Below, one piece after another: positions 35,525 through 49,093 of a DNA stretch of 64,000 nucleotides (the first letter of the stretch is position 1; each line of letters begins with the position of its first letter). The translations under genes and the position numbers were made by a program. This DNA is from Stackebrandtia albiflava. GTDB taxonomy: Bacteria > Actinomycetota > Actinomycetes > Mycobacteriales > Micromonosporaceae. The stretch covers positions 1,473,142-1,537,141 of the forward strand of contig NZ_VLLL01000005.1 of the NCBI RefSeq assembly GCF_007994225.1, written 5' to 3'. The notes under the pieces were generated by a model. It was not told the DNA's origin and searched no databases. It saw only the letters and a program-made list of their open reading frames with translations.

Positions 35525-36691
35525 TCAGCGTGGTGGCAGGACGACGACCTGCGGGTGGGGGTGGTGGAGGAAGTCGTGGTGGGAGATGTCCCAGCCGTAT
35601 GCGCCGGTGCCGGGGAACACGAGCAGGTCGCCCACGCGTAGGCGGGTGACGGGGACGGAGCGGGCGAGGACGTCGCGTGGTGTGCACAGTTCACCGCCGA
35701 CGTCGACGCGGGTGTCGGTGACTTCGGGGCGTGGCCACGGGTAGGGCCAGGCGTCGACGGGGTGTACCCGGACGGGGTGGCTGTAGCCCCATGCGGCGGG
35801 GAGCCGGAAGTGGTGGGTGCCGCCGCGTATGACGGCGAAGTGGCGGCCGTGGTTGCGTTTGAGGTCGATGACTTCGGTGACGTACCAGCCGGTGTCGGCG
35901 GTGAGGTGGCGGCCGAGTTCGAAGACGACGGTGGTGTCGGTGCGGATTCGGCGCATGCGTCGGCCGAAGGCGGTGAGGTCGAAGGTGCGGTGGCCGGTGG
36001 GGTCGACTCCGATGCCGCCGCCGAGGTTGACGGTGTCGAGGTGGATGTCGTGTCGGCGTGCGGTGTGGTGTGCCCATCGGAGGGATCGGGTGACGAAGTC
36101 GGCGTGGGCGGTGGCGTCGAGGTTGTTGCTGACGGCGTGGAGGTGGAGTCCGGTGAGGTGGATGTGGGGGAGTCGGCGGGTGATTGCGATGGCGTCGGGG
36201 AGTCCGGTGACGTCGATTCCGAATGGTGTGGGTGTGCCGGTCATGCGGTGGCTGCCGCCGGGTGTGGTGGCGCGTCGGTTGACGCGGAGGGCGACGTGGG
36301 CGGTGTGTCCGGTGTGGGCGGCGATGTGGTCGATGCGTCGTAGTTCGTGGGTGCTTTCGGCGTTGATGGTGACGGGGGTGGGGTGGGTTATGGCGGTGGT
36401 GAGGGCGTGGTCGGTCTTGGCGGGTCCGCTGAAGGCGATGTGTCGTGGTGCGGCGGCGATGGCGATGTCGAGTTCGCCGCCGGAGGAGACTTCGATGCCG
36501 TCGGCGGTGTGGGCGGCTTCGGTGACGATGGCGGGGTGGCTGTTGGCCTTCATGGCGTAGAGGAGGCGGGCGTGGGGTGGTAGTGCGGCGCGGGTGTGCC
36601 GGATGCGTTGTCGCAGGGTGTGGAGGTCGTAGATGTAGGCGCAGACGGGTGTGGTGAGTGTGGTGATGGCGTGTGTGATGTGGGGGTTCAT
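35525..36691 (-). CDS. PLP-dependent decarboxylase (LysA/SbnH-like) of siderophore operon
   Basis: The 388-residue protein is a fold-type III PLP decarboxylase like diaminopimelate decarboxylase: Schiff-base Lys48 in LYAMKANSHP, GGELDIA near 83, the glycine loop NLGGGIG near 225 and the Cys of GGELCTPRDVLA near 335. Next to two IucA/IucC synthetases its role is most like SbnH of staphyloferrin B, which decarboxylates an amino-acid-citrate intermediate, or it supplies a diamine. The ATG at 36691 overlaps the preceding stop (ATGA), so it is the third gene of a coupled operon. Codon use is extremely C-rich, with many His and Thr. Confidence 0.82.
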   Translation of the reverse strand: MNPHITHAITTLTTPVCAYIYDLHTLRQRIRHTRAALPPHARLLYAMKANSHPAIVTEAAHTADGIEVSSGGELDIAIAAAPRHIAFSGPAKTDHALTTAITHPTPVTINAESTHELRRIDHIAAHTGHTAHVALRVNRRATTPGGSHRMTGTPTPFGIDVTGLPDAIAITRRLPHIHLTGLHLHAVSNNLDATAHADFVTRSLRWAHHTARRHDIHLDTVNLGGGIGVDPTGHRTFDLTAFGRRMRRIRTDTTVVFELGRHLTADTGWYVTEVIDLKRNHGRHFAVIRGGTHHFRLPAAWGYSHPVRVHPVDAWPYPWPRPEVTDTRVDVGGELCTPRDVLARSVPVTRLRVGDLLVFPGTGAYGWDISHHDFLHHPHPQVVVLPPR

Positions 36692-38334
36692 GTGGCCAGG
36701 GGGTTGGGGACGGGGACGTGGTGGTCGGGTCCGTTGTGGAGTCTCATGTGGAGTAGCGCTTTGAGGGGGAGGGTGGGTGTGGTGTAGAAGTCGCGGTCGG
36801 TGGTGGGGATGTCGGTGTCGGCGATGATCTCGCCGATGGTCTTCCACGCGTCGGTGGCGTGGAGTGTGCCGTCGTGGTGTAGGGCGTTGACGAGTGCGGC
36901 GAGGTGGTTCTGGATGACGGTGTAGGCGACCTTGGTGTGGGTGACGGTGATGTCGTCGGTGGTGGTGACGGAGTGGGGGTGTAGTCGGGGTGTGTGGCCG
37001 GCGGCGGTGAGGCGGGGTGTGTGGATGCGTGCGCCGCCGAGGTCGCGGAGTATGACGCGCACGGGGGTGGCGTGGCGGAAGACGGGGATGCAGTTCTGTA
37101 GGTGGGCTTCGAGGCCGATTCCGTAGTGGGCGGCGAGGTGGAGTGTGGTGCCCAGCAGGATGGTGGCGTATCGGGTGAGGAAGTCCTGTGGGGTGCCGGG
37201 GTGGTGGGCGGCGAGTTCGGTGGCGATGGTGGTGCCGGTGTGGGGGGAGGTGGCGGGTAGGGCGGTGGCGGGGACGGCGAGTTCACCGGGTCGGGTGTGG
37301 TGGTGGAGGGGGCCGCGGAGGATGCAGGTGAGGTCGCGGGCGGCGGGGTGTGTGTGGTGGGCGCTGACGGCGGCGGGTTCGGGGAGGACGGTGAGTCGTT
37401 CCCTCAGGTGTGGGTCGGTCGTGGTGATGGTGTGGAGGGTGTGTGAGAGGGCGGGGCCGTTGGCGGCGGTGGCCGGTGAGATGCCGCGGCGGGTGGAGGT
37501 GATGTGTATGTCCAGTGAGGTCTTGAGGTAGTGGCCGTCGGGGAGGACGAGGGTGCGGATGGAGGCGGTGGGTTCGGCGGGGATGTGGATGTCGGGGAGG
37601 TCGTGGATGAGGCCGCGGCGGTAGAGGTCGTGGTGCCGGGTGGTGACGACGTGTCGATGTTGCCAGGGGTGGAGGGGGATGAGGACGCGGTCGGGGTGCA
37701 GGTGTGCGCGTAGTGGGGGGTGGAGTGTGGTGAGGAGGTGGTCGAGGGGTTGGCCGGTGGTGGTGACGAGTTCGCGGCTTGCGGATATGACGGGTAGACG
37801 GGTGGTGTGGTGGGATTCGAGGTCGTGGTTGAGGCGGTCGGTGTGGGTCCAGCCGAGTCGGGTGCGGGCGCCGGGGTGTAGGTGGTGGCCGGTGACGGCG
37901 AGGGGTTCGAAGTGGCGGCAGGGTTGGTACCGGGGGCCGGTGGCGAGTCTGTGGGCGAGGGTGACGGAGTCGTGGGCGTGGTGGGTGCGGGCGAGGGCGC
38001 GGTGGTGGTCGGTGATGTGGCGGTGCCGGGTGAGGGCGAGGGCGAGTCCTTCGACGGCGTCTGTCAGTTCGGTGATGTCGGCGCCGGGTTCGAGGAGTCG
38101 CAGGAGGGTGGCGGGGTCGGTGACGGGGTGGTCGTCGTGGTGGACGGTCCCGTGTGGGGTGATCTGGGCGAAGGCGTGGGTGTGGGCGTGGAAGCGCAGG
38201 GTGCCGGTGCCGGTGGGTGTGGTGTGGGTGTCGCCGTGGCGGTGGGCGCGGGTTCTGATGTGGGCGAGGTCTTCTCGCCATGCGGCGGCCAGGACGGCGT
38301 GGACGAGGTGGTGGGCTGCGGCGTGGTGGTTCAT
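36688..38334 (-). CDS. IucA/IucC family NRPS-independent siderophore synthetase, second
   Basis: The 548-residue synthetase ATP-dependently joins a carboxylate to an amine or alcohol. Family features: the HPWQ motif in LIPLHPWQHRH near residue 215, LKTSLDIHITSTRRGISPA near 270 (the K-S/T-x-R ATP-binding segment), GIGLEAHLQN near 410 and VILRDLGG near 440. The FhuF-like C-terminus seen in some synthetases is not obvious. The ATG at 38334 overlaps the stop of the first synthetase, and its own stop overlaps the decarboxylase start. His and Thr content is unusually high because of the local base skew. Confidence 0.85.
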   Translation of the reverse strand: MNHHAAAHHLVHAVLAAAWREDLAHIRTRAHRHGDTHTTPTGTGTLRFHAHTHAFAQITPHGTVHHDDHPVTDPATLLRLLEPGADITELTDAVEGLALALTRHRHITDHHRALARTHHAHDSVTLAHRLATGPRYQPCRHFEPLAVTGHHLHPGARTRLGWTHTDRLNHDLESHHTTRLPVISASRELVTTTGQPLDHLLTTLHPPLRAHLHPDRVLIPLHPWQHRHVVTTRHHDLYRRGLIHDLPDIHIPAEPTASIRTLVLPDGHYLKTSLDIHITSTRRGISPATAANGPALSHTLHTITTTDPHLRERLTVLPEPAAVSAHHTHPAARDLTCILRGPLHHHTRPGELAVPATALPATSPHTGTTIATELAAHHPGTPQDFLTRYATILLGTTLHLAAHYGIGLEAHLQNCIPVFRHATPVRVILRDLGGARIHTPRLTAAGHTPRLHPHSVTTTDDITVTHTKVAYTVIQNHLAALVNALHHDGTLHATDAWKTIGEIIADTDIPTTDRDFYTTPTLPLKALLHMRLHNGPDHHVPVPNPLAT

Positions 38335-39872
38335 CGGTGTCCGGCGATGGGGTTGGGGATGGGGGTCCACCGGTTGCGTAGCGGGTCGGGTGCCAGTCGC
38401 ATGGCGGTGGTGGCCTTGAGTGGCCAGGTGTCGCCGAAGAGTTGGTCGTGAGTGTGGGAGTGGTGCCGGGTGTGGTGGTGGGTGTGGGTGGTGACGGGTC
38501 GCCACCAGTGGTGTGGTGGTCGGGTGTAGTGGTGGCTGAGGGAGTGTACGAGGTGTCGCAGCACGGTGGCGTAGAGGGCCGCGGTGAGGACGGTGAGGCG
38601 GGCGTCGGGGTCGGGTTCGGGTATGTCGCCGGTGAGGGCGGGGGCGTGTCGTAGGGCGGGGGTGTGGGGGTCGACGCGGACGCCGCCGAAGTCGCGGTAG
38701 ACGAGTCGGTGGGGGCGCCAGTTTCGGAGGGTGAGGAGGGTGTTCTGGCCGTGGGCTTCGAGGGCGATTCCGTGGCGGGTGGCGAGGTGGAGTGGTGCGG
38801 TGGTCAGGAGTGCGGCGCAGTGGTGCCACCAGCGGTCGGGTGGTAGGCGGCTGGCGGTGATGACGGTGGCGATGAGGGGTGTGCCGGTGTCGGGGCAGGT
38901 GGCGGTGAGTGCGGCGACGGGGAGGGTGATGTCGCCGGGGGCGCGCGGGGGTGTGCGGCGGATGATCGCGGCCAGTGCGGGGTCGGGGTTTCCGTGGTGG
39001 TCGGCGGCGAGTGTGGCGGTTTCGAGGTGGACGGCCATGCCGGTGTGGGGGGTGAGGGTGTGGAGGGCGCGGCTGAGGATGGGTCCGTTGTGGAGGGCGG
39101 CGGGGGAGACGTGCCGGACGGCGCTGGTCATCTGGAGGTCGACGGAGGTTTTGACGTGTAGGTGTGGGTGGTGGTGTGGGGCGAGGGTGCGCAGCGACAT
39201 GAGGGGGGCGGCGGTGAGGGTGGCGTGGGCGGTGAGGTGGGGCCGGTGGGTGGCCTGGTGTGGGTGGACGGGTAGTAGTGGGGTGCGGTCGGGGGTGTGC
39301 CAGGGCCAGTCGCGGCCGGTGTGGTGGTGGCCGGTGAGGGGGATGAGGGGGAGGGTGACGGTGGGGTGGTGTTCGGGTGCCCAGTCGGTGAGGCGTTCGG
39401 GTGGGAGGCCGCCTCGGGTGCGGTTGAGTGGGTGGAGGGGGTGTCCGTCGGGGTTGATCTGTTCGAAGTAGACGCCGGGGTCGGGGTGGTGTGCGGTGGC
39501 GGTGTCGTGGAGTCGGTGTGGGGGTGGGTGTGGTGTGGCGGCGGCGCGGGCGTGGGCGAGGTTGCGGGCGGATTCGGTGGCCTGGTCGGCCAGTCGGGCG
39601 GCGGTGGTGGGGTCGGGGGTGAGGTGGGGTGCCAGTTGCGCGGGGTGGGTTATGGGGATGCCGTCGATGTGGATGTGGGCGTGGGTGGTGTCGAAGTCGT
39701 GGGTGTGTGGGCCGGTGATGGTGGCACCGGTGTGGCTTCGCAGGTGGTGGCCTCGGTGGGTGCGGTGGTGGTGGGTGATGCCGGGGAGGGGTTCGCGGGT
39801 GGCGGCGGTCCACAGTCGGGTGAGGATGTGGCGTTGCGCGTCGTGGTGTCGTGGTGCGTCGGGGATGGACAG
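38331..39872 (-). CDS. IucA/IucC family siderophore synthetase, first, with predicted CTG start
   Basis: The 513-residue reading frame carries YFEQINPDGHPLHPLNR near residue 130, the HP-x-Q-like LPVHPHQ near 200, VKTSVDLQMTSAVRHVSPA near 240, GIALEAHGQN near 370 and LVYRDFGGVRV near 395, a complete IucA/IucC domain. The frame is open back to a TAA at 39906-39908, but there is no ATG, GTG or TTG until residue 225. A CTG at 39872 lies 6 nt after GGAGG (39879-39883), so CTG is the predicted start. An internal start would remove half the enzyme. An iron box overlaps the promoter region just upstream. The stop overlaps the next gene's ATG. Confidence 0.8.
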   Translation of the reverse strand: MSIPDAPRHHDAQRHILTRLWTAATREPLPGITHHHRTHRGHHLRSHTGATITGPHTHDFDTTHAHIHIDGIPITHPAQLAPHLTPDPTTAARLADQATESARNLAHARAAATPHPPPHRLHDTATAHHPDPGVYFEQINPDGHPLHPLNRTRGGLPPERLTDWAPEHHPTVTLPLIPLTGHHHTGRDWPWHTPDRTPLLPVHPHQATHRPHLTAHATLTAAPLMSLRTLAPHHHPHLHVKTSVDLQMTSAVRHVSPAALHNGPILSRALHTLTPHTGMAVHLETATLAADHHGNPDPALAAIIRRTPPRAPGDITLPVAALTATCPDTGTPLIATVITASRLPPDRWWHHCAALLTTAPLHLATRHGIALEAHGQNTLLTLRNWRPHRLVYRDFGGVRVDPHTPALRHAPALTGDIPEPDPDARLTVLTAALYATVLRHLVHSLSHHYTRPPHHWWRPVTTHTHHHTRHHSHTHDQLFGDTWPLKATTAMRLAPDPLRNRWTPIPNPIAGHR

Positions 39873-39894
39873 CGCACACCTCCAAGCCGAGAGG

Positions 39895-39943: not shown

Positions 39944-41179
39944 TCACACCCCTACGGTGCGCCGGTTCTGTTGCGGCACCAGGCCACCCACGTCACCACC
40001 GGCGAGGCGGTCCCGCAACCGCCGCAGTGTCGGCAGGTGCAGCGTGTAGGCGTCGTCGGCGAGCCAGCGTCCGATCTCGGCGGCGGCGTCGGAGGCCGAC
40101 AGGTGCCGGATGACGGCGTGGGCACCGGAGATGCGTTCCACCGGCAGGTGCGGCCACACGACGTAGCCGCGGACCTCCGCGCCGGGCAGCAACCGGTCGA
40201 CGTCGGCGACGGCGTCGGGGAGGTGTTCGGCGCCGGTGTCGTCGAGGGTGCGCGCGACGGGCGGGGTGATGACGGCGACGCGGCGGCCACACACGACGGT
40301 GTACTCGGCGCGGTGGTCACCGACGGGGACGCGCACGAACAGTCGCGCGGCCGGCAGTCGCTCCAACAGGGACCGCAGGACGGTCGCGGTGCGGCGGTCG
40401 GCGCTGGGGCGGGCCCCGGCGGGCCCGAACGCGTTGTAGTCGCGAAGCGCCGAACGGACCGCCGCCTGCAGTCGCGCCGCCATCCGCAGTCGCCGCACGC
40501 ACCAGGGGACGGTGGCGACGGTGACCAGGTGCGCCGACATCTGCACCGCGATCGCGGTGGGACCGAACAGCCAGGTGACTCCCGCGGCGGCGGCCAGGAT
40601 CGCGATACGGGCGACGGGTTTTCGGGGTTTGAGGGTGCGGGCGGCCGAGGCGGCCACGGCCACGGTCGTCACGATCAGGTACGGGAAGACCAGTGCCTTG
40701 ACGGCGGGGTAGAGGTCGCCGCCCAAGACGGTGAACGCCAGCAGGGTCGAGATCGCCAGCCACGCGGTCGTGGCGGCGGCGGCGAGTGCGCCGCGCAGCC
40801 ACGCCGAGGGGGAGTGCCGCAGCCGCCGGTGCGGGTTGATGTCGACGAACCAGGGCCTGGCCACGACTTCGGCGGTGTTGTCGCCGTCGGTGGCGGGTGT
40901 CTGGACGCGCCATGCCTTGACCCGGCGGCCCTTGGCGTGCCGGCCGGGGGGTTTGCCGACGCGCCAGCCGCGGTGGGTGCCGCGCGCGGTGTCGTATTCG
41001 GCGCGGCGGTGCGGGTGGGACAGGACCTCGTAAGCGGTCTGGATGGCGTGGAAGCGGTCGGGGTCGCCGCCGGCGTCGGGGTGGGCGTCGCGCACACCCC
41101 TTCGGTACGCCTGCCGGATCTCGGTGGTGTCGGCGGACGGCGTGACTCCCAAGATTTTGTAATGATCAGGTTCGGTCAC
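39944..41179 (-). CDS. Membrane J-domain protein with NERD-like C-terminal domain
   Basis: The 411-residue protein has a J-domain at the N-terminus (residues 4-65; YKILGVTPSADTTEIRQAYRR and the HPD motif in AHPDAGG near 33), hydrophobic segments between about 130 and 225, and a C-terminal domain (about 265-395; EYTVVCGRRVAVITPP, GAEVRGYVVWPHLP) that looks like a diverged nuclease-related domain. J-domains stimulate Hsp70 ATPase, so it should recruit an Hsp70 to the membrane. GTG at 41179 is preceded by GGAGG. It lies in the neighbourhood of a GrpE-like protein and two dynamins, but an NYN gene and a gap separate them. The NERD call is tentative. Confidence 0.75.
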   Translation of the reverse strand: MTEPDHYKILGVTPSADTTEIRQAYRRGVRDAHPDAGGDPDRFHAIQTAYEVLSHPHRRAEYDTARGTHRGWRVGKPPGRHAKGRRVKAWRVQTPATDGDNTAEVVARPWFVDINPHRRLRHSPSAWLRGALAAAATTAWLAISTLLAFTVLGGDLYPAVKALVFPYLIVTTVAVAASAARTLKPRKPVARIAILAAAAGVTWLFGPTAIAVQMSAHLVTVATVPWCVRRLRMAARLQAAVRSALRDYNAFGPAGARPSADRRTATVLRSLLERLPAARLFVRVPVGDHRAEYTVVCGRRVAVITPPVARTLDDTGAEHLPDAVADVDRLLPGAEVRGYVVWPHLPVERISGAHAVIRHLSASDAAAEIGRWLADDAYTLHLPTLRRLRDRLAGGDVGGLVPQQNRRTVGV

Positions 41180-41269
41180 CCGAACCTCCGGTTTGGATCG
41201 ACGCGTCAGCGCGTTTACGGTTTGGGATATTCGAACCTACTACACCCGGTGGCCACGGCGGGTGGTGCG

Positions 41270-41692
41270 TCACCTCGTGTCGTGGCGGCTGCACTCGGTT
41301 CCGTCGGCGGGAGGTGGGTGGCGTAGTGCCGCGGCGCCGGTGGTGTGGCCGCCGGCGGCGTGGACGCGGCGGCGCAGTTCCCGGTCGGAGGTGACGACCA
41401 GGGCCGGTACGGTGCCGGCGGCGACCAGGTCGACGATGTGGTCGTCACCGGAGCCGGTGGCCTCTTCGACGGTGACGGTGTCGCTGGAGGCGACGCCGCG
41501 GGCCCGGCCCTCGGTGACCAGGACGACCCGCACCGGCGGCGGGTGTGGCCAGTCGGGTAGCCCGGTGTGGGTCAGGTGCGCCAGGCGGTCGCGTAGCCGC
41601 GTGGTGGCGGCGCGCCGGTCGCGCCACCAGCCGTCGGGTGTGGCGCCGACGACGTTGGCGGCGTCGACGATGATGACCGATTCGTGGACCAT
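41270..41692 (-). CDS. NYN-domain (PIN-like) putative ribonuclease
   Basis: The 140-residue protein has a PIN/NYN-like metal centre: IIVDAANVVGA near residue 6 (first acidic residue), EEATGSGDDHIVDL near 80 and VVTSDRELRRRV near 103. Such domains are single-strand RNA or DNA endonucleases, often for RNA processing. The substrate is unknown. The ATG at 41692 gives the typical start MVHESVIIVDAANV and has a purine-rich GGGGGAACC upstream. It lies between the J-domain gene and the Asp-rich protein gene on the same strand. Confidence 0.75.
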   Translation of the reverse strand: MVHESVIIVDAANVVGATPDGWWRDRRAATTRLRDRLAHLTHTGLPDWPHPPPVRVVLVTEGRARGVASSDTVTVEEATGSGDDHIVDLVAAGTVPALVVTSDRELRRRVHAAGGHTTGAAALRHPPPADGTECSRHDTR

Positions 41693-41736
41693 GCGGTTCC
41701 CCCGGTGGTGGTGTGTGCCAGGGGTGCCCGGTCGGT

Positions 41737-42249
41737 CTAGGGCTGCCACCACCTGGCGAGGCCGGCCACCGCCGGGTCGTCGGACTGCAGCAGGCTGTTC
41801 CAGTCTCCGGTGGAGGCGTCCATGCTGAGCAGGTCGTCGGTGACGGCGGTGGTGTCCAGGGTATTCCAGGTGAACGTGTCGACGGTGTCGCCGAGCAGGT
41901 CGGCGTCGCTCCAGGGTGGCCCGTCGACGGGTTCGGGCATCGGGTCCAGTTCCAGTTGCGGCGGGAAGTCGGGGGTGAACGCGTCGCCGTCGGCGAAGTC
42001 GACCGCGTCGGGGTCGGTGCCGGTGACGGGGTCGGGTGTGGTGTCGAAGTCGTCGCCGGGTGGGCCGGTGTCGTCGGGGGTGTCCTGCGGGGTGTCGTCG
42101 CCGGGTTCGTCGTCTGCGGCCGGGTCGTCGTCGAAGTCGTCGGCCGGGTCGGACAGGTCGAGGGTGTCGTCGTCGAAACCGGGTTCGTCGAAGGCGTCGA
42201 AGCCGGTGCCGTCGTCGCCGGCCTCGTCGGGTTCAGGCCAGGAGTCCAT
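41737..42249 (-). CDS. Asp-rich acidic protein of unknown function, next to dynamin genes
   Basis: The 170-residue protein is extremely acidic: Asp, Pro, Thr and Gly dominate residues 1-110 (for example FDDDTLDLSDPADDFDDDPA) and there are almost no basic residues. Only the last 50 residues look folded (WSDADLLGDTVDTFTWNTL, LARWWQP). It is likely disordered and soluble. The stop of the upstream dynamin gene is 12 bp away, so it is in the same operon. A functional parallel to IniB, which stands next to IniA/IniC in mycobacteria, is possible by position only. Confidence 0.65.
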   Translation of the reverse strand: MDSWPEPDEAGDDGTGFDAFDEPGFDDDTLDLSDPADDFDDDPAADDEPGDDTPQDTPDDTGPPGDDFDTTPDPVTGTDPDAVDFADGDAFTPDFPPQLELDPMPEPVDGPPWSDADLLGDTVDTFTWNTLDTTAVTDDLLSMDASTGDWNSLLQSDDPAVAGLARWWQP

Positions 42250-42261
42250 ACTCACCACGGG

Positions 42262-44151
42262 TCACCCCTTCGGTTCGGCGGGTGCCTTGGGAAGTACCAG
42301 CCGGGTCTTGGCAAGCACCTCGTCGAGTTGCTTGACCTTGGTCTTGTACGCCTCGCGGCGTTTGGTGAGGCCCTCCTTCTTCTTGGCGCGGGTGGCCTGG
42401 TCCTGTTTGAGGTTCTTCTCGGCGGCGGCGATCTGCTTGTCCAGTTGCTGCCCGCGGCGTTCCAGGGCGTCGTCGAGCGCCATGTTGAACACGTACTCGA
42501 TCTCGGTGAACCGGTACTGGATCTCGTCCTGCAGGGAGGCGCGGGTCTCCTGGAGGACCTCGCGCACCCACCGGCCGGCCTGCTGCCGGTCCTGCGACAC
42601 CTTGCGGCGGTACATGACGAACGCGGCGGCGGCCAGGCCCAGGCCCACGCCCGAGGCCGTCAACGCCACCGAGGCCACACCGGTGGCGGCGATACCGGCG
42701 GCGCCCACGCCCATGGTGGCGACGCGGCCGATCATCATGGCCGAACCGGCCGACGACATGATGAGCATGGCGTTGTCGCCGGAGGCCTCACGGCGCGGTT
42801 TGGAACCGGACTGCATGCGCAGTTGCGCGTTGATGCGGCCGATGACCTGCGCCAGTTCGTGAGGTGGGAACATCTGCGCCAGGACCCGGTCGGCCAGGAC
42901 CTTGAACCGGTAGTCCAGTTCCTGACTCAACCGCACCGACAGGGCGTGCAGTGCCCGGTCGACCTCCTCGGGCATGCGTTTGATCTCGCCCCGGTTGGAC
43001 TTCTCGACCTTGTTGAGCAGTTCCTCCTGGAGTTTCTGCACGTAGGTGCGAAGCCGTGACGTCGCCTCGACGCGGGCGCGTTGGATCTCGGTGCGCAGCG
43101 CCATGTTCGACTGCTTGTTCTGGCTGCGTTTGAGGGACGTGACGCGTTTCTTGTCCTCTTTGAGTTTCTCGGTGACGGCCGGGTCGGGGTCGAGGGTCTT
43201 GAGTTGCTCGGCCACGCCCAGGTCCAGGCGGATGAACTCGCTGCGCAGCGACCGCAGCACGTTGGCGTGCTGCAGGACGGTGCCCTTGGTGCCCAGGTTG
43301 ATCAGGGCGTGCTGGAGCGCGGCGATGCGGGACTCGGTGATGAGGGTCTTGGCGGCGTCGACGGGCATCGTCAACGCCATCTCCGCCAACCGCGACGACA
43401 CCGGGAAGAACGGCGCGGTCGCGAACCGGGGCGCGTGGGTCTGCAGCAGCGCGATGTTGTCGTCGCGGATGCGTTCCCAACCGGGGTAGGCGTCGATCTT
43501 GGTCTGGGCGAACATGACGAAGTTGACGCGTTTACTGGCCTCGATGAGGAAGTCCAGTTCGGGACGCGAGAACGGGGAGGAGGAGTCCACCACGAACAGC
43601 AGTGCCGTGGCGCGGGCGACCGCGTCGAGCGCGACCTCGGCGTGCATGGCGTCCAGGCCGCCGACGCCGGGGGTGTCGATGAGCGACATGTACTGCAGCA
43701 GCGGCGCCGAATGCTGGATCCGCAGCCGCCGGGGCGGCCGCATCCCACCGGGCAGCTGCCCCAGGGTGGTGCCCCAGTCGCGGATGTCGGAGGGGTTGAG
43801 CCGCACCGGTACCTCGTTGCCGGGCACGTACGCCTGCACGGTGTGTTCGGCGCCGTGCTCGAACTCCAGGTAGGAGCTGGTGGCCACGGCCGCGTCCACC
43901 GGCGACAGGTTCGGCACCCCGATGAGGGCGTTGGTCAGTGACGACTTGCCGCGTTTGGTCTCACCGACGATGACCATGGCGGGCCGGGACGTGGCGTCGC
44001 GGCGGATGGCGTCCATCTCCTGCGCGGCGTCGGCGTCCACTTTACGCAACGCGGCGATGCCGTTGGTGACGGCGGTGCCGCACAGTTTGTTCAACGCCGC
44101 GATCTGTTCCTTGGCGGTGGGTTTCTTCTGCGCGGGCGCGGTGGTGGTCAC
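42262..44151 (-). CDS. Dynamin-like GTPase (IniA-like), with membrane-insertion helices
   Basis: The 629-residue protein has a GTPase domain with G1 GETKRGKSS at 63-71, a G2 Thr region SYLEFE near 93, G3 DTPGVGG near 158 and G4 TKID near 217, then a long helical stalk with Lys/Glu-rich coiled coils (300-410 and 520-620). A hydrophobic Gly/Ala-rich pair of helices lies between (about 465-505), as in bacterial dynamins that insert in membranes. IniA/IniC-like dynamins are thought to keep membranes intact under envelope stress. GTG at 44151 starts 3 bp after the stop of the GrpE-like gene. Confidence 0.85.
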   Translation of the reverse strand: MTTTAPAQKKPTAKEQIAALNKLCGTAVTNGIAALRKVDADAAQEMDAIRRDATSRPAMVIVGETKRGKSSLTNALIGVPNLSPVDAAVATSSYLEFEHGAEHTVQAYVPGNEVPVRLNPSDIRDWGTTLGQLPGGMRPPRRLRIQHSAPLLQYMSLIDTPGVGGLDAMHAEVALDAVARATALLFVVDSSSPFSRPELDFLIEASKRVNFVMFAQTKIDAYPGWERIRDDNIALLQTHAPRFATAPFFPVSSRLAEMALTMPVDAAKTLITESRIAALQHALINLGTKGTVLQHANVLRSLRSEFIRLDLGVAEQLKTLDPDPAVTEKLKEDKKRVTSLKRSQNKQSNMALRTEIQRARVEATSRLRTYVQKLQEELLNKVEKSNRGEIKRMPEEVDRALHALSVRLSQELDYRFKVLADRVLAQMFPPHELAQVIGRINAQLRMQSGSKPRREASGDNAMLIMSSAGSAMMIGRVATMGVGAAGIAATGVASVALTASGVGLGLAAAAFVMYRRKVSQDRQQAGRWVREVLQETRASLQDEIQYRFTEIEYVFNMALDDALERRGQQLDKQIAAAEKNLKQDQATRAKKKEGLTKRREAYKTKVKQLDEVLAKTRLVLPKAPAEPKG

Positions 44152-44154
44152 GGG

Positions 44155-44700
44155 TCAGGCTCCTGCGCTGCGGTAGACGGTGACGATGGGGTTGCGGAGC
44201 ATGGCGGCGCGGTCGGCGTACCCGAGGGTCTCGACCACGGCGATGACGCCGTCCTGGCTGGGGTCGGGCGCCGGCGTGGTGCCGCCGGCCTCGTGCCGGG
44301 TGGGGTCGAACCGTTCACCCACCGGCGCCACGGTGGCGACACCGGCTTCGGCCAGGCCGGCGCCGATCCGGTCGGCGATGGCCTGACTGGTGGCGCGGTC
44401 ACGCACGTAGATGCAGGTGTTGATGAGGGTGCGGCGTTCGGCGCCCAACTGGTCGATGGTGGCCAGCGCGGCCGGGTCGGGTTGCTCGGTGCCTGCGGCG
44501 GCGGCCGGTTGCAGCCGCCCGGCCAGGATCAGCAGCACGCACACACCGGCGAGGGCCGCGCCGGCCGCGCCGGCGACCGCGGCCGGTACGGCGAACGACG
44601 CCTCTTCGGTGGCGGCGAGTAGTCCGGTGACGGCGCCGGTCGTTGCCGTGGCGGCAATGACCGCCACTGTGGCTATCAGCCGCAGGTGGCTTGTCGACAT
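44155..44700 (-). CDS. Membrane-anchored GrpE-like protein
   Basis: The 181-residue protein has two hydrophobic segments (about 7-28 and 38-60), then a cytoplasmic domain similar to the beta-domain of the nucleotide-exchange factor GrpE: ACIYVRDR-like TCIYVRDRATSQAIADR near 95, GVATVAPVGERFDPTRHEAGG near 118 and GVIAVVETLGYADRAAMLRNPIVTVYR near 148. It lacks the long N-terminal GrpE helix and has a membrane anchor instead. It would exchange nucleotide on an Hsp70 at the membrane. It is encoded just before the IniA-like dynamin and after the IniC-like dynamin, in one operon. The assignment rests on motif resemblance. Confidence 0.68.
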   Translation of the reverse strand: MSTSHLRLIATVAVIAATATTGAVTGLLAATEEASFAVPAAVAGAAGAALAGVCVLLILAGRLQPAAAAGTEQPDPAALATIDQLGAERRTLINTCIYVRDRATSQAIADRIGAGLAEAGVATVAPVGERFDPTRHEAGGTTPAPDPSQDGVIAVVETLGYADRAAMLRNPIVTVYRSAGA

Positions 44701-44754
44701 CGGGTTCTCCTATCGAGGTGCGTGGGGGTCGAAGCGGGTGGGGGTGTGTCGAGC

Positions 44755-46266
44755 CTAATGCGCCGGCCGGGGGTTTCGCAGCCGCTGAGCGACCAGGTGG
44801 AAGCCGCGGGCGACGACGTGGGCGACGCGGGCCTGCGCGGGGGAGGCGCCGCCGACGGCGAACGCCCGCCACCGGTTGTTGGCCTCCAGGGCGGCACGGA
44901 TCAGGGCCTCGGGTGGCTGGTGCGGCATTCCCAGGACCCGCTGCGGGTCCGACGTCAACGCCAGGCGCGCGACCTCGGCCTCCATGTCGGCGGGCAGTTC
45001 GACGGCGCCGGTGGTGACCTGGGCGGCGACCTCGATGAGCCGCAACCGGTGGTATTCGGGGTCTTGGATGACGCGTTCGATGGCGTCGCGCAGCATCTCG
45101 CGTTCGGCGGGGTGTTCGCTGGCGGAGGCGACCGCCTCCAGCCGGGTCAGGCCCCAACCGGCCTTGATGGCGTCGGTCCGCAACTGGAACGCCTGGTCCA
45201 GTGTGGTGCGCAGGCGCGGGAACCCGGAAGCGGCGAACAGCATCCGCACCAGTTCACCGGTGGCCATCTGCGGGTTGGCGACCAGGTGCGCGATGGCGAA
45301 GTTGATGCCGTACAGGTCCAGCAGCCGCAGCAGGCGTTCACGCTGCTCCGGCGGCACGGGGCATTCCCGGGTCGCGAACAGGGACGCGGCGGCCAGCAGG
45401 ATGGCGCGTTCCTCGGCGGGCAGTTCGGCGAGTTTCCGCAGCGCCTCGCAGTCGCCGGCGGTGAGGCGCCCGGCCTCGGTGGTCTCGGCGAGCAGCCCCA
45501 CCACCGGCACCACGTCCGACACCACGCGCCGCATCACCTGCGACTGGTTGCGCGACAGGGGTTCGGCGACCGGCCAGGGGTCTCCGGCGGGCGTGGGCGC
45601 GAGCTTGTCGATCTTGTTGAACAGGCCGAGCGAGTTGATGGGGTTGCTCGACAGTTTCGACGACATGGTGCGAAACGCCTGCAACGCGGCCAGGTCGTCC
45701 TCACGGACCGACTGGGTGAACACGTAGATGATGGCCTCGGCGCCCGACAGCGCAGACTGGCTGTCGGGATCGATGTCGTCGGCGATGGGCGCGTCGAACA
45801 GGAACTTGCGGGCCTCGTCGGAGATGGAGGTGTTCACCGACGACATGCCGGGGGTGTCGACGACCGTGAGGTTCTCGAGGCGGTCGGAGGTCAACGTGAC
45901 GTCGATGTAGGCGATCTGTTCACGCGGCACCGACAGACGCTGCGGGATCATCCCCGACTCGTCCAGGGGCAGGCTGGTGCGGGAACCGTCCCGTTTGACG
46001 ACGTCGACACGGTCGGAGGTGCCGTAACGGAACTGCGTCACCAACCGGGTGCACTCACCGACCTCGGTGGGTGCGACCCGCCGCCCGATCAACGCGTTCA
46101 CCAGAGTGGACTTACCGGCTTTGAGGCGGCCGGCGATCGCCACCCGAAGCGGCTGCCCGATGCGTTGCCGCACGCCGTCGACCTCGGCGCGGGCGCGGGG
46201 CGACAACCGCGGCGCCAGTTCGGTGCACAACCCGGCTACCCGGGTACTCAATGGGCCAGATGCCAT
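44755..46266 (-). CDS. Dynamin-like GTPase (IniC-like)
   Basis: The 503-residue protein has G1 GRLKAGKST at 46-54, a G2 region GECTRLVTQF near 70, G3 DTPGMSS near 130 and G4 NKID near 210, followed by an alpha-helical stalk. No hydrophobic insertion helices are evident, unlike the IniA-like partner, so the two may act as an unequal pair. The start is ATG at 46266 without an obvious Shine-Dalgarno sequence; the frame is open further upstream but that part is not protein-like. It is first in the minus-strand operon and divergent from a LuxR-type regulator. Confidence 0.85.
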   Translation of the reverse strand: MASGPLSTRVAGLCTELAPRLSPRARAEVDGVRQRIGQPLRVAIAGRLKAGKSTLVNALIGRRVAPTEVGECTRLVTQFRYGTSDRVDVVKRDGSRTSLPLDESGMIPQRLSVPREQIAYIDVTLTSDRLENLTVVDTPGMSSVNTSISDEARKFLFDAPIADDIDPDSQSALSGAEAIIYVFTQSVREDDLAALQAFRTMSSKLSSNPINSLGLFNKIDKLAPTPAGDPWPVAEPLSRNQSQVMRRVVSDVVPVVGLLAETTEAGRLTAGDCEALRKLAELPAEERAILLAAASLFATRECPVPPEQRERLLRLLDLYGINFAIAHLVANPQMATGELVRMLFAASGFPRLRTTLDQAFQLRTDAIKAGWGLTRLEAVASASEHPAEREMLRDAIERVIQDPEYHRLRLIEVAAQVTTGAVELPADMEAEVARLALTSDPQRVLGMPHQPPEALIRAALEANNRWRAFAVGGASPAQARVAHVVARGFHLVAQRLRNPRPAH

Positions 46267-46621
46267 GGTGATAGGGCGCTTTCGCCGACGGACGACACCG
46301 CTTTGGCTGTGGGCGCCGACCTCCCTTCCGTACACGACCAGTAGTGAACCGGCAGGCGCGCACACCACCCGCCGCGGTGACCAGAATGCCGACGCTACCT
46401 CACCCCGGCCAGTCGCCGCCGTCTCGCCCGGGCGGCGCGCACACCCCCGGCCGAGGAGGGCACCGACCGCCTCGTCGAGTCGAAATATGATGGCGGGTAC
46501 GGCGTCACCTCGCCTGGCTGGCAAGGTGATACCACGACCCTACGAGCCGCCGCGCACACCGACATCCCGGTTTCGTGCCACCCGCGCGCGACGCTCGTCT
46601 TTCGAAGCGGGAAGGAGCCAC
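46267..46621. other. 355-bp divergent intergenic region between IniC-like gene and LuxR-type regulator
   Basis: No gene is evident. It must hold both promoters. GTCGAAATATGATGG near 46479-46493 is locally AT-richer and could include a -10. I see no strong inverted repeat. Confidence 0.5.
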
Positions 46622-49093
46622 GTGCCCCAGGCCACCACCGGCCCGGCCGACCAGCACCCGGGCCACCCCACGCCGGTCGCCGACCCCCTGGCCACCGGTA
46701 TCGCCCACACGCTGCAACAACCGGGCCTGGCCGTCGTCACCGGCGTGGCCGGTATCGGCCGCACCACCGTCCTCCAACGCCTGGCGTCGGCGTTTCGCGG
46801 CCCGGTCCACCACGGCGGTGGCCTGTCGATGCTGCGCGCCCGACCGGGCCTGGCCCTGTCACGGGCCGTACGCGCCGGGCTTCCCGTCCACGACGTCGCA
46901 CTGTGCGCCGAGGCCGTCCGGTCCCGGGTCCGTGGCGGCCTGTTGATCATCGACGACCTGCAGTGGTGCGACCCGGTGACCCTGGCGGTACTGCCGCACC
47001 TGGCGGCGCACTGCCGCATCGCGGCGGCACTTCGCACCCCACACCGGCTCCCGGACGCGGCCGTGGCCGCGCTGCGCGAGGCGGGCACGTTCCTGCCGGT
47101 GCCGCCCCTGTCGACGACCGCGGCGACCGAGCTGGTGACCCGGTTGGCGCCGGGACTGGCCGAGCCGGCCGCGGCGCAACTGGCGCGCCGCGGCGGCGGC
47201 AACCCGTTGGTGTTGTCGTCGCTGGCGCGCACCGCGCAACACCACCCGCGGCGGCTGCACGCACCCGCCCGCGACGACGACACCGCCGTGCACGCGGTCG
47301 CCGAGTCCATCGCCGACCTGCCCCGCGCCGAACGCACCGCCTTGGCCGCGCTGGGGCTGCTGGGGCGTCCGGCGTCGACGGCGACACTGGGCGCCGGTGT
47401 GCAGGGCCTCGCCGAAGCCGGGATGGTCCGCCTCGACGGTGACGTCGCCGCGGCGGCGTCACCGTTCGTGGCCGAGGTCGCCGCGGGACTGTTGGACGCC
47501 GACGCCCGCGTCGCCCTCCACCGGCGGCTCGCCGCGCTCGTCGACGACCTGGAGGCCGCCAGGCACCTGGCCGCCGCCGGAGACCACGACGCCGCACGTG
47601 ACCGCGCCAAGGCCGCCGCCACGGTGGACAACAAGGCGTTGCGGGCCGAGGCGCTGCTGTTCGCGGTGTCGCTGCCGGGCAGCCACGGCGAGGACGACCG
47701 GGTGGCCGCCGCGGCGGCGGCACTGTCGGTGGGCAGGCCCCGCTCGGCGTTGACGGTACTGGCCGAGGCGTCGTCGGTGCGGGCGGCGGTGTTGCGTGTG
47801 GACGCGCAGCTGCACGCCGGGCAGCCCGAACGTGCCCGCCTGGCCGCGGCCGACCTGCCCGATGCGGCGGCGGCACCGGAGGCGGCGTACGACATCGACC
47901 GGGTCCGGTTGTTGTGCGCGCCGCCCGGTGGCGCGGTGCGGGAACTGGCCGCGCAGATCCGCGCCCGGCACGGGGAACGCCCGCCGCACCCGGGGTTGGC
48001 GGCGGCCCTGGCGGCGGCCGACGCGGCGGCGCGGGCACCGGGCTGGAAGGCCGCCCTGGCGGCGGCGGCGGCCGCGGCCGGTCGTGACGGTGACGCGGTG
48101 TCGGCCAGGTGGAGCGCGTGGCTGCTGGTGGAGTGCCTGATCGCCGACGGTGAGCTGGCCGCGGCGCAGCAGGCGTGCGCGGCGGCGGCGCAGGCGTGCA
48201 CCGTGGATCACGCGTTCAGTTGGCAGACCCGGTTCGTGGCGGCGCAACTGTGGTGCCAGGTGCTGCAGGGCCGTGAACTGGACGCCGCGACGGGCCGCGC
48301 GGTGTCGCTTCTGGACCACGCGTTGCCGTCGGTGGCGCGTGGTTACGCCTCGGCGGCGGCGAGCCTGGCCGAGGCCGACGCCGGTGCGTTGCGTAACGCC
48401 CGGTACCGGCTGCGGCGCGCCGGGACTATCCCGGAGTCGGTGGCGCAGCTGCTTCGCTGGGTGACCGGTGAGGCGGCGTGGTTGGACAATCAGCCGCAGC
48501 AGGCGGCGGTCACGGCCGAGGGGTCGGCGCCGGGGCTGGTCGCGGGTCTGCGTTACATCACCGGTCACTGGGCGGCGCACGACGGGGCCGCGGCTCCTCC
48601 GGACCCGGCCGCCGACGGCCTTCCGGAGCCGGCGCGGCGCACGTTGGCGGCGTGGCACGCCGCGACCGGTTTCGACGCCGCCGCCGACGCCTGGCGGGAC
48701 CTGGTGGTGCGTGAGCAGGTGCGGTGCCTGTTGGCGGCGGGCGTGCACGCGGTGGAGGCGGCCTCGGCGGTGCCGCCGTTGGAGGAGGCCGAACGGTTGG
48801 CCGACGAGGCGGGCCTGACGGTGTTGGCGGGGCGGGCACGTCAGGCGCTTCGGCGTCACCGGGTCCGGCGTGACCAGCGTGGCGCCCGCGCCGGCGACGA
48901 GTTGACCGCGCGTGAGCGGCAGGTGTTGGCGATGGTCGCCGACGGGGACCCGACCCGGCGGATCGCGGGGGCGTTGGGCATCACCCGGGAGACCGTGGAG
49001 ACCCACATCAGGGCCGGTATGCGCAAACTGGGCGCCAAGACCCGCACCGAGGCGGCGGTGAGGGCGGCGACGATGCAGGAGAGGGGGCCGTGA
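46622..49093 (+). CDS. LuxR-family regulator with STAND/LAL-type ATPase module; Walker A Lys replaced by Arg
   Basis: The 823-residue protein has an AAA/STAND-like nucleotide-binding region (about 25-230; Walker A GVAGIGRTT at 41-49 and Walker B LLIIDDLQWCD near 103-113), a long alanine-rich helical repeat region and a C-terminal LuxR helix-turn-helix (about 755-820; LTARERQVLAMVADGDPTRRIAGALGITRETVETHIRAG). The conserved Walker A Lys is Arg47, so ATP hydrolysis may be impaired. GTG at 46622 follows AAGGAG. It is divergent from the dynamin operon and is its likely regulator. The next gene overlaps its stop. Confidence 0.82.
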   Translation: MPQATTGPADQHPGHPTPVADPLATGIAHTLQQPGLAVVTGVAGIGRTTVLQRLASAFRGPVHHGGGLSMLRARPGLALSRAVRAGLPVHDVALCAEAVRSRVRGGLLIIDDLQWCDPVTLAVLPHLAAHCRIAAALRTPHRLPDAAVAALREAGTFLPVPPLSTTAATELVTRLAPGLAEPAAAQLARRGGGNPLVLSSLARTAQHHPRRLHAPARDDDTAVHAVAESIADLPRAERTALAALGLLGRPASTATLGAGVQGLAEAGMVRLDGDVAAAASPFVAEVAAGLLDADARVALHRRLAALVDDLEAARHLAAAGDHDAARDRAKAAATVDNKALRAEALLFAVSLPGSHGEDDRVAAAAAALSVGRPRSALTVLAEASSVRAAVLRVDAQLHAGQPERARLAAADLPDAAAAPEAAYDIDRVRLLCAPPGGAVRELAAQIRARHGERPPHPGLAAALAAADAAARAPGWKAALAAAAAAAGRDGDAVSARWSAWLLVECLIADGELAAAQQACAAAAQACTVDHAFSWQTRFVAAQLWCQVLQGRELDAATGRAVSLLDHALPSVARGYASAAASLAEADAGALRNARYRLRRAGTIPESVAQLLRWVTGEAAWLDNQPQQAAVTAEGSAPGLVAGLRYITGHWAAHDGAAAPPDPAADGLPEPARRTLAAWHAATGFDAAADAWRDLVVREQVRCLLAAGVHAVEAASAVPPLEEAERLADEAGLTVLAGRARQALRRHRVRRDQRGARAGDELTARERQVLAMVADGDPTRRIAGALGITRETVETHIRAGMRKLGAKTRTEAAVRAATMQERGP

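Follow-up and report, generated by a model that had tools for sequence, protein, structure and literature searches.

A dynamin-pair operon of Stackebrandtia albiflava encoding GrpE-head and J-domain membrane proteins, and a membrane-anchored Hsp70 linked to it in related genomes

In mycobacteria, the iniBAC operon, which carries the dynamins IniA and IniC, is reported to be induced by cell-wall drugs. IniR-iniBAC is described as an envelope-stress response, and the available sections of the same paper give the domain plan of IniR as an ATPase plus a LuxR-type region and mention, in a single sentence, a dnaK-like gene beside iniR in M. smegmatis (PMC5760070). Membrane fission by IniA has been published; its scission activity is low, help from IniC may be critical, and the available text names no IniA partner other than IniC (PMC6715688). 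The GAP1-N2 conflict systems, described mostly from actinobacteria and firmicutes, comprise GTPases, some with membrane helices, beside GrpE, a DnaJ domain and an HSP70 without peptide-binding domain (PMC7159879, available in part). Here, we describe a cluster of six minus-strand genes, at positions 46266 to 39944 of a 64-kb stretch of Stackebrandtia albiflava DNA (the window), in which an IniC/IniA dynamin pair is encoded together with a membrane-bound GrpE-head protein and a membrane J-domain protein. Within the accessible literature, links between these parts were limited to the dnaK-like sentence of PMC5760070 and the theme of PMC7159879; coverage of subscription and preprint sources was poor, so that this is a weak negative.

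The cluster shares with mycobacterial iniR-iniBAC a homologous IniA, an IniC-like partner and a divergent regulator of the IniR domain plan. In contrast to iniR-iniBAC, the IniC-like gene comes first, a GrpE-head protein is encoded between the dynamins, and the operon also contains genes for a J-protein and an Asp-rich protein. No IniB-family match was found among the six cluster proteins, the Asp-rich protein not having been aligned directly to an IniB. With the GAP1-N2 systems, the locus has in common GTPases next to GrpE, DnaJ and a peptide-binding-domain-less HSP70. However, the accessible part of PMC7159879 describes those systems with GAP1-N2 GTPases and FNIII-repeat proteins, whereas the GTPases here are of the Dynamin_N/IniA-IniC type and no FNIII component was matched in the six cluster proteins. 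The LeoABC bacterial dynamins show distant similarity only and differ in their operon; PADLOC matches include LeoBC for the IniA-like protein (2.4e-19) and LeoA for the IniC-like one (9.3e-6). An anti-phage system was considered and rejected, PADLOC giving only Leo dynamin models (LeoA, LeoB, LeoBC) without an effector.

The six genes lie where the initial annotation had placed them and are transcribed in the order IniC-like, GrpE-head, IniA-like, Asp-rich, PIN/NYN-like and membrane J-protein. The gaps between the first four genes, taken from the coordinates, are 54, 3 and 3 bases, so these four look like one transcription unit. We regard this layout and the domain identities of the main products as established. 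The two GTPases were assigned correctly in the initial annotation. The IniC-like protein (44755..46266, 503 amino acids) matches Dynamin_N with 6.1e-16 and has the P-loop GRLKAGKS. The IniA-like protein (42262..44151, 629 amino acids) matches Dynamin_N with 6.7e-13 and the solved M. smegmatis IniA (6j72) with 5.6e-21 in phmmer; with a GTPase domain of this type and homology to a solved IniA, it belongs to the IniA family. Its membrane segment is a hydrophobic stretch seen directly in the sequence. To follow the genes in other genomes, we used the best 80 of at least 326 confirmed relatives from an IniC-profile search, some of these loci being truncated by contig ends. IniC and IniA are present in 80/80, as found with the IniC profile, the GrpE-head gene in 44, an Hsp70 gene in the retrieved flank in 13, the J-protein gene in 20, and the IniR-like and Asp-rich genes in 64 each. 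This confirms the co-occurrence on which the initial annotation had made its proposal depend.

The same annotation had described the second product as a two-helix protein with a GrpE-type head, and this description stands: a search for GrpE similarity in 44155..44700 (181 amino acids) was run and similarity was found. Pfam GrpE matches with 5.2e-6 (26.7 bits, cut-off 25.8), spanning profile positions 97-163 of 165 only. A profile of 44 sequences (the window protein and 43 relatives) retrieved seven distinct PDB sequences at E values up to 1; each is a GrpE, and the best reaches 4.5e-10. The AlphaFold2 model (mean pLDDT 87.0, beta domain at 96-98) places two membrane helices at the N-terminus, followed by helices 76-102 and 106-118 and then the GrpE beta domain. 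In Foldseek, the top 12 matches to this model are all GrpE structures and the 13th has an E value of 0.93. A chance GrpE match is ruled out, as the family profile and the fold search return only GrpE on top. From sequence and model, we conclude that the predicted head is a genuine GrpE head, that is, the C-terminal beta-domain head of GrpE nucleotide-exchange factors. The long helical stalk at the N-terminus of canonical GrpE is missing from the model and is replaced by the two membrane helices. The head contains the GrpE-type signatures G-x-x-FDP-x-x-HEA, GY and V-x-V. Residues such as G128, F131, D132, H136, E137, G160, R169 and V175 are invariant among relatives and mostly shared with the canonical GrpE of the same genome, while E157, D163 and P171 are invariant in the head and not shared by that GrpE. 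Remote relatives (L093-L098) have a GrpE head without a predicted membrane helix, which indicates that the head is what stays conserved throughout, the membrane anchor being a lineage trait. A six-frame scan places the GrpE-head gene between the two dynamin genes in 43 of the 44 loci that carry it, and gene calling shows the same position in the remaining one, L133. A tblastn search with the window protein in genomes G016 and G017 gave nothing of weight (best E 0.82).

The membrane J-domain protein (39944..41179, 411 amino acids), likewise anticipated by the initial annotation, matches DnaJ with 1.4e-17, and its HPD motif is invariant in 20/20 aligned sequences. J-domain structures are the top Foldseek matches for its model (mean pLDDT 73.6), in which the J-domain is followed by a low-confidence linker, about four predicted membrane helices and a C-terminal alpha/beta domain; helices between residues 126 and 248 fit about four membrane passes. 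The C-terminal domain weakly resembles restriction-endonuclease folds (Foldseek 2p14, E 0.031; 1xmx, E 0.035). An active nuclease was considered for this domain and is not claimed, because the match is weak and the alignment has no obvious acidic/lysine catalytic motif. At an E value of 1e-30, the J-protein was found in 10/61 genomes, every copy within the cluster, and no Hsp70 gene was detected in the retrieved flank of these ten (that of G003 is short on one side). The 20/80 loci with a J-protein gene come from Stackebrandtia, Phytomonospora, Actinorhabdospora and Glycomyces, and again none has an Hsp70 gene in the retrieved flank. J-domains normally need more of Hsp70 than its nucleotide-binding domain (NBD), so that canonical DnaK may be what the J-protein recruits instead.

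The presence of GrpE-type and J-domain proteins had been taken in the initial annotation to imply an Hsp70, and none had been noted. This absence holds for the cluster and for the window, where none of the 15 PF00012 matches of the genome is located. It does not hold for the genome: a cluster-type Hsp70 is encoded about 79 kb from the end of the J-protein gene (G000:C1:1433171-1434313). The genome also encodes a canonical dnaK-grpE-dnaJ group and, in addition to canonical DnaK, about 13 scattered NBD-type Hsp70-like proteins. A similar expansion of NBD-type proteins was seen in several relatives. Against a profile from alignment A5, which consists of cluster-linked Hsp70 copies and has canonical DnaK as one of its 12 rows, the cluster-type copy scores 673.5 bits, canonical DnaK 614.2 and the best other NBD paralogue 431.5. 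The copy is 81% identical to the cluster Hsp70 of Actinocatenispora, and its own paralogues reach at most 51% among the matches listed. With the Actinocatenispora NBD as query, copies with 63% identity or more occur in at least 21 of the 61 genomes, others reaching at most 58% among the matches listed. In a FastTree phylogeny of 66 Hsp70 copies, 21 cluster-adjacent, displaced or small-contig copies form one clade with a local support of 0.997; the label 'displaced' in this tree also takes in the small-contig copies L206 and L207, and the 63% match of G021 lies outside this clade, yet was counted as present. Eight displaced copies group together (support 0.924), from five Stackebrandtia-genus genomes, Phytomonospora, Actinorhabdospora and one Glycomyces, and a wider clade of 31 copies is weakly supported (0.356).

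The genes around the Hsp70 point in the same direction. In Dactylosporangium, Actinocatenispora and others, Hsp70, GDPD and MFS genes all lie beside the cluster, and in the Actinoplanes group an MFS gene does. The displaced Hsp70 of S. albiflava adjoins GDPD and MFS genes. Both are kept at 6/8 displaced loci (this genome included); L204 has MFS only and the Glycomyces locus L205 neither. As GDPD and MFS genes accompany Hsp70 here too, the simplest history would be an ancestral block, in which a divergent regulator was followed by the IniC, GrpE-head, IniA and Asp-rich genes and by Hsp70, GDPD and MFS, and which was split in the Stackebrandtia lineage. We consider the orthology of the Hsp70 and its former adjacency to the cluster established.

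Cluster-type Hsp70s consist of an actin-type NBD that a Pro-rich linker joins to a single hydrophobic helix at the C-terminus. PF00012 matches in S. albiflava and relatives, together with conserved phosphate-loop motifs, identify the NBD. Some cluster-linked Hsp70s (L102, L103, L243, L245) extend beyond the membrane helix, with a BON domain in L243; this extra sequence could make such Hsp70s cell-envelope sensors.

The survey of gene neighbourhoods suggested by the initial annotation did find Hsp70 beside related clusters. In a phylum sample of 296 genomes, IniC was detected at 1e-20 in 12, S. albiflava among them, and all 12 IniC loci of the other 11 genomes were examined. An Hsp70-family gene lies within 10 kb of IniC in 12/12 of these loci. 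Eleven of the 12 Hsp70s are of the NBD-plus-membrane-helix type, and L242, near a contig end, has canonical DnaK only; 9/9 genes put to Pfam (L242, L246 and L247 were left out) match HSP70 above cut-off. From the background density of at least 398 PF00012 matches in 374 Mb (61 genomes), about 0.02 would be expected per 20 kb. The recurrent adjacency of Hsp70 and dynamins in this sample is therefore taken as established, and the side and strand of the Hsp70 relative to the dynamin pair differ between lineages. Among IniA/IniC loci from relatives, Hsp70 is in the retrieved flank of 16/34. Seven loci among relatives share a genome with seven of the 80 loci, as seen from identical IniA; none of these overlaps the 30 whole-searched genomes, so the groups of 17 and 27 genomes compared below should not double-count. 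In L239, L241 and L242, an IniA/IniC pair lies less than 6 kb from canonical dnaK; the last two also show grpE-type and dnaJ-type matches alongside. Loci L101, L102 and L103 hold a second, more distant IniA/IniC-like pair in the same family, with a membrane-anchored Hsp70 nearby.

Presence of the Hsp70 was also compared with presence of the cluster, for which an IniA match in the 61-genome set had to reach 1e-80 or better. Within the family of the window, a 63% Hsp70 orthologue occurs in 17/23 genomes with the cluster and in 1/14 without it (Fisher 1.1e-4); G006 was scored as identity 0, its weak Hsp70 match (3.2e-53) not being among the matches listed. Additionally, genomes of the Micromonosporaceae/Glycomycetaceae type, a grouping in which we presume the genera to be correctly placed, were searched whole. 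In this family group, the GrpE-bearing genomes tested have the Hsp70 orthologue (17/17, 75-97% identity).

Upstream of IniC, the divergent gene 46622..49093 (plus strand, start approximate) encodes an ATPase-like region (AAA_22 0.0013, under the curated cut-off) and a LuxR-type DNA-binding domain (GerE 2.4e-16). We call its product IniR-like from its domain plan; relatives are present in 64/80 loci. Motif discovery with a script on 26 regulator-IniC regions, each with 150 bases of either gene, gave a shared gapped word. Its core, TGGCACGA-N4-GGGA, is exact in 79/83 regulator-IniC regions (80 distinct sequences from 77 genomes) and present with at most one mismatch in 83/83, compared to 0-2 in ten first-order resampled controls. 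In the window, the copy TGGCACGAAACCGGGA lies at 46565..46580 on the minus strand, and its conservation across these intergenic regions makes it the likely candidate site of the regulator. A looser search allowing three mismatches would give 1.46 matches by chance in the window alone; the weight of the motif thus rests on conservation. An exact core is absent from those 16 loci of L167-L183 that lack an IniR-like gene, and likewise from L094-L103 (L094 does carry the regulator) and L238-L250. Motif-based co-regulation of Hsp70 was considered and rejected: the 16 Hsp70 loci L198-L213 contain no exact copy and one copy with a single mismatch, in L208, which also holds the cluster.

We tentatively favour, at somewhat less than even probability, an IniR-type envelope-stress operon whose IniC/IniA pair has acquired a membrane-bound ATPase switch of the Hsp70 type that steers the dynamin polymer. 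By analogy with mycobacteria, the IniR-like regulator would induce both dynamins, the GrpE-head protein and the rest of the operon under envelope stress, and the dynamins would assemble on the membrane. The Hsp70 NBD, tethered by its C-terminal helix, would cycle between ATP and ADP states. The GrpE-head protein would serve as nucleotide-exchange factor, acting on the linked Hsp70 by opening its tethered domain, and the membrane J-protein of the Stackebrandtia lineage would also act on this Hsp70, as a likely ATPase stimulator or recruiter. The target of the switch would be the dynamin pair, the cycle gating how the IniC/IniA polymer assembles, turns over or is released at the membrane. Our data suggest that this pair may be under the control of an ATP cycle of the chaperone type, and a recurring partner of the Hsp70 type that brings its own exchange factor would offer a testable control mechanism for IniA/IniC. 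If this is true, an Hsp70 nucleotide switch is employed without a substrate-binding domain. A stronger version, in which NBD-only Hsp70, GrpE-head and J-protein evolved in Actinomycetota as a dedicated, fully membrane-anchored machine driving assembly and disassembly of the dynamin pair, seems unlikely to us. In clathrin uncoating by auxilin and Hsc70, a J-protein, an Hsp70 and an exchange factor act on a membrane coat. The dedicated machine of the stronger version would be a prokaryotic counterpart in kind to such Hsp70-driven coat turnover; the coat is a different one, the Hsp70 here lacks a substrate-binding domain, and the likeness to uncoating is an idea only.

Several observations weigh against an Hsp70 switch on the dynamins. 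The cluster of the window has no Hsp70 nearby, and 67/80 loci show none in the retrieved flank, some being cut by contig ends. Among the family-group genomes without GrpE, 9/27 still have an Hsp70 of at least 60% identity (61-73%). For the family group, the comparison is 17/17 versus 9/27 (Fisher 4.9e-6). Such p-values ignore shared ancestry, the losses may be few events, and the reference for identity came from a genus that has GrpE, so that the test favours GrpE-bearing kin. When all of the 61 genomes that carry the cluster are taken together (33 genomes), presence of GrpE shows no significant association with the 63% orthologue (14/20 versus 6/13, p = 0.28), perhaps in part because remote orthologues drop below 63%. 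All 11 Actinoplanes-group genomes tested keep the IniR-like, IniC, IniA and Asp-rich genes without GrpE or an Hsp70 orthologue; the chaperone part is thus dispensable for the dynamins. In the Saccharopolyspora/Lentzea-type genomes tested, the GrpE-like gene is present in 8/9 and an Hsp70 of at least 60% in 0/9, the best match per genome being 48-53% (one genome has none at 1e-90), and no Hsp70 lies within 10 kb of the cluster in their loci. These two groups limit the switch claim. Additionally, the displaced Hsp70 loci lack the exact regulator motif, and the Hsp70 locus of S. albiflava has no copy. The linked Hsp70 itself lacks a substrate-binding domain and, in alignment A5, misses eight residues of a DnaK loop, which we take to be the loop that contacts GrpE; contacts should therefore differ from those of DnaK-GrpE. 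The initial annotation had proposed a membrane-localised chaperone cycle. Its membrane location is supported by predicted helices in the GrpE-like and J-proteins and by the hydrophobic tail of the Hsp70, but without a substrate-binding domain the textbook chaperone cycle is doubtful. Its suggestion that the cycle might assemble or disassemble the dynamin coat is kept here as a hypothesis.

Among the alternatives, envelope quality control survives best, and we consider it possible but doubtful. Here, the GrpE-like, J- and Hsp70-type proteins would form a membrane chaperone that looks after envelope proteins under stress, or recruit canonical DnaK into one. The dynamins would be co-encoded through a shared response to envelope stress, neither group acting on the other, the response to which IniR-iniBAC belongs in mycobacteria (PMC5760070, as far as available). 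A substrate-binding domain is missing from the linked Hsp70 and the GrpE gene is positioned between the two dynamin genes, both of which speak against such a chaperone. The J-protein fits it better: HPD is kept in 20/20, canonical dnaK, grpE and dnaJ are encoded as a group in the genome, and the absence of Hsp70 from the retrieved flank of every J-protein locus means that canonical DnaK could be the partner.

Less likely again is a change of role in which the GrpE head became a dimeric membrane adaptor for the dynamins and no longer serves any Hsp70, with the Hsp70 linkage as a relic of an older association. Retention of the GrpE head fold argues against this, as does the persistence of Hsp70 in 17/17 GrpE-bearing family-group genomes, even where it has been relocated. 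The adaptor would, on the other hand, account for 8/8 GrpE-bearing Saccharopolyspora/Lentzea-type genomes without an Hsp70 of at least 60%, for the head invariants E157, D163 and P171 that the canonical GrpE of the genome lacks, and for the helix-less forms in L093-L098. Least probable, and in our view improbable, is that chaperone-like and dynamin genes are functionally unlinked neighbours inherited on a stable chromosomal segment: the sampled synteny is largely within one order and the flanking MFS and GDPD genes are conserved too, but the Hsp70 varies in side and strand by lineage and yet stays within 10 kb in all 12 phylum-sample loci outside S. albiflava, and the GrpE gene is embedded between IniC and IniA.

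The Asp-rich protein (41737..42258) has 31% Asp+Glu, in agreement with its first description, and no family match in domain-library scans. It is probably disordered, and 17 aligned sequences share two short conserved motifs, near PEPVDGxPWxD and, C-terminal, DDPAxxxLARWW. Its gene is present in exactly those 64/80 loci that carry the IniR-like gene. This shared distribution suggests that the acidic protein works together with the regulator; one genus group lacks both genes, so the co-distribution may reflect a single event.

The NYN nuclease named in the initial annotation could not be established. The PIN/NYN-like protein (41270..41695, 141 amino acids) is weak in identity: its best Pfam matches are PIN_9 (0.013) and NYN_YacP (0.33), and by PDB profile the best are Utp24/Fcf1 PIN proteins (0.05-0.3). 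Elsewhere, the gene was called only in near relatives (Stackebrandtia-genus, Phytomonospora and Actinorhabdospora loci), and it was not called in loci L070/L104. A nuclease as part of the system was set aside because of this weak identity and narrow distribution. Downstream of the J-protein gene, at 36688-39885, IucA/IucC-type siderophore synthetase-like genes were recognized by eye; loci from Phytomonospora and Glycomyces (L106, L136) have genes of this kind after the J-protein gene as well. In some Glycomyces, e.g. L136 (14785-16290), a molybdopterin-oxidoreductase-like gene of about 500 amino acids, also recognized by eye, lies between the Asp-rich and J-protein genes.

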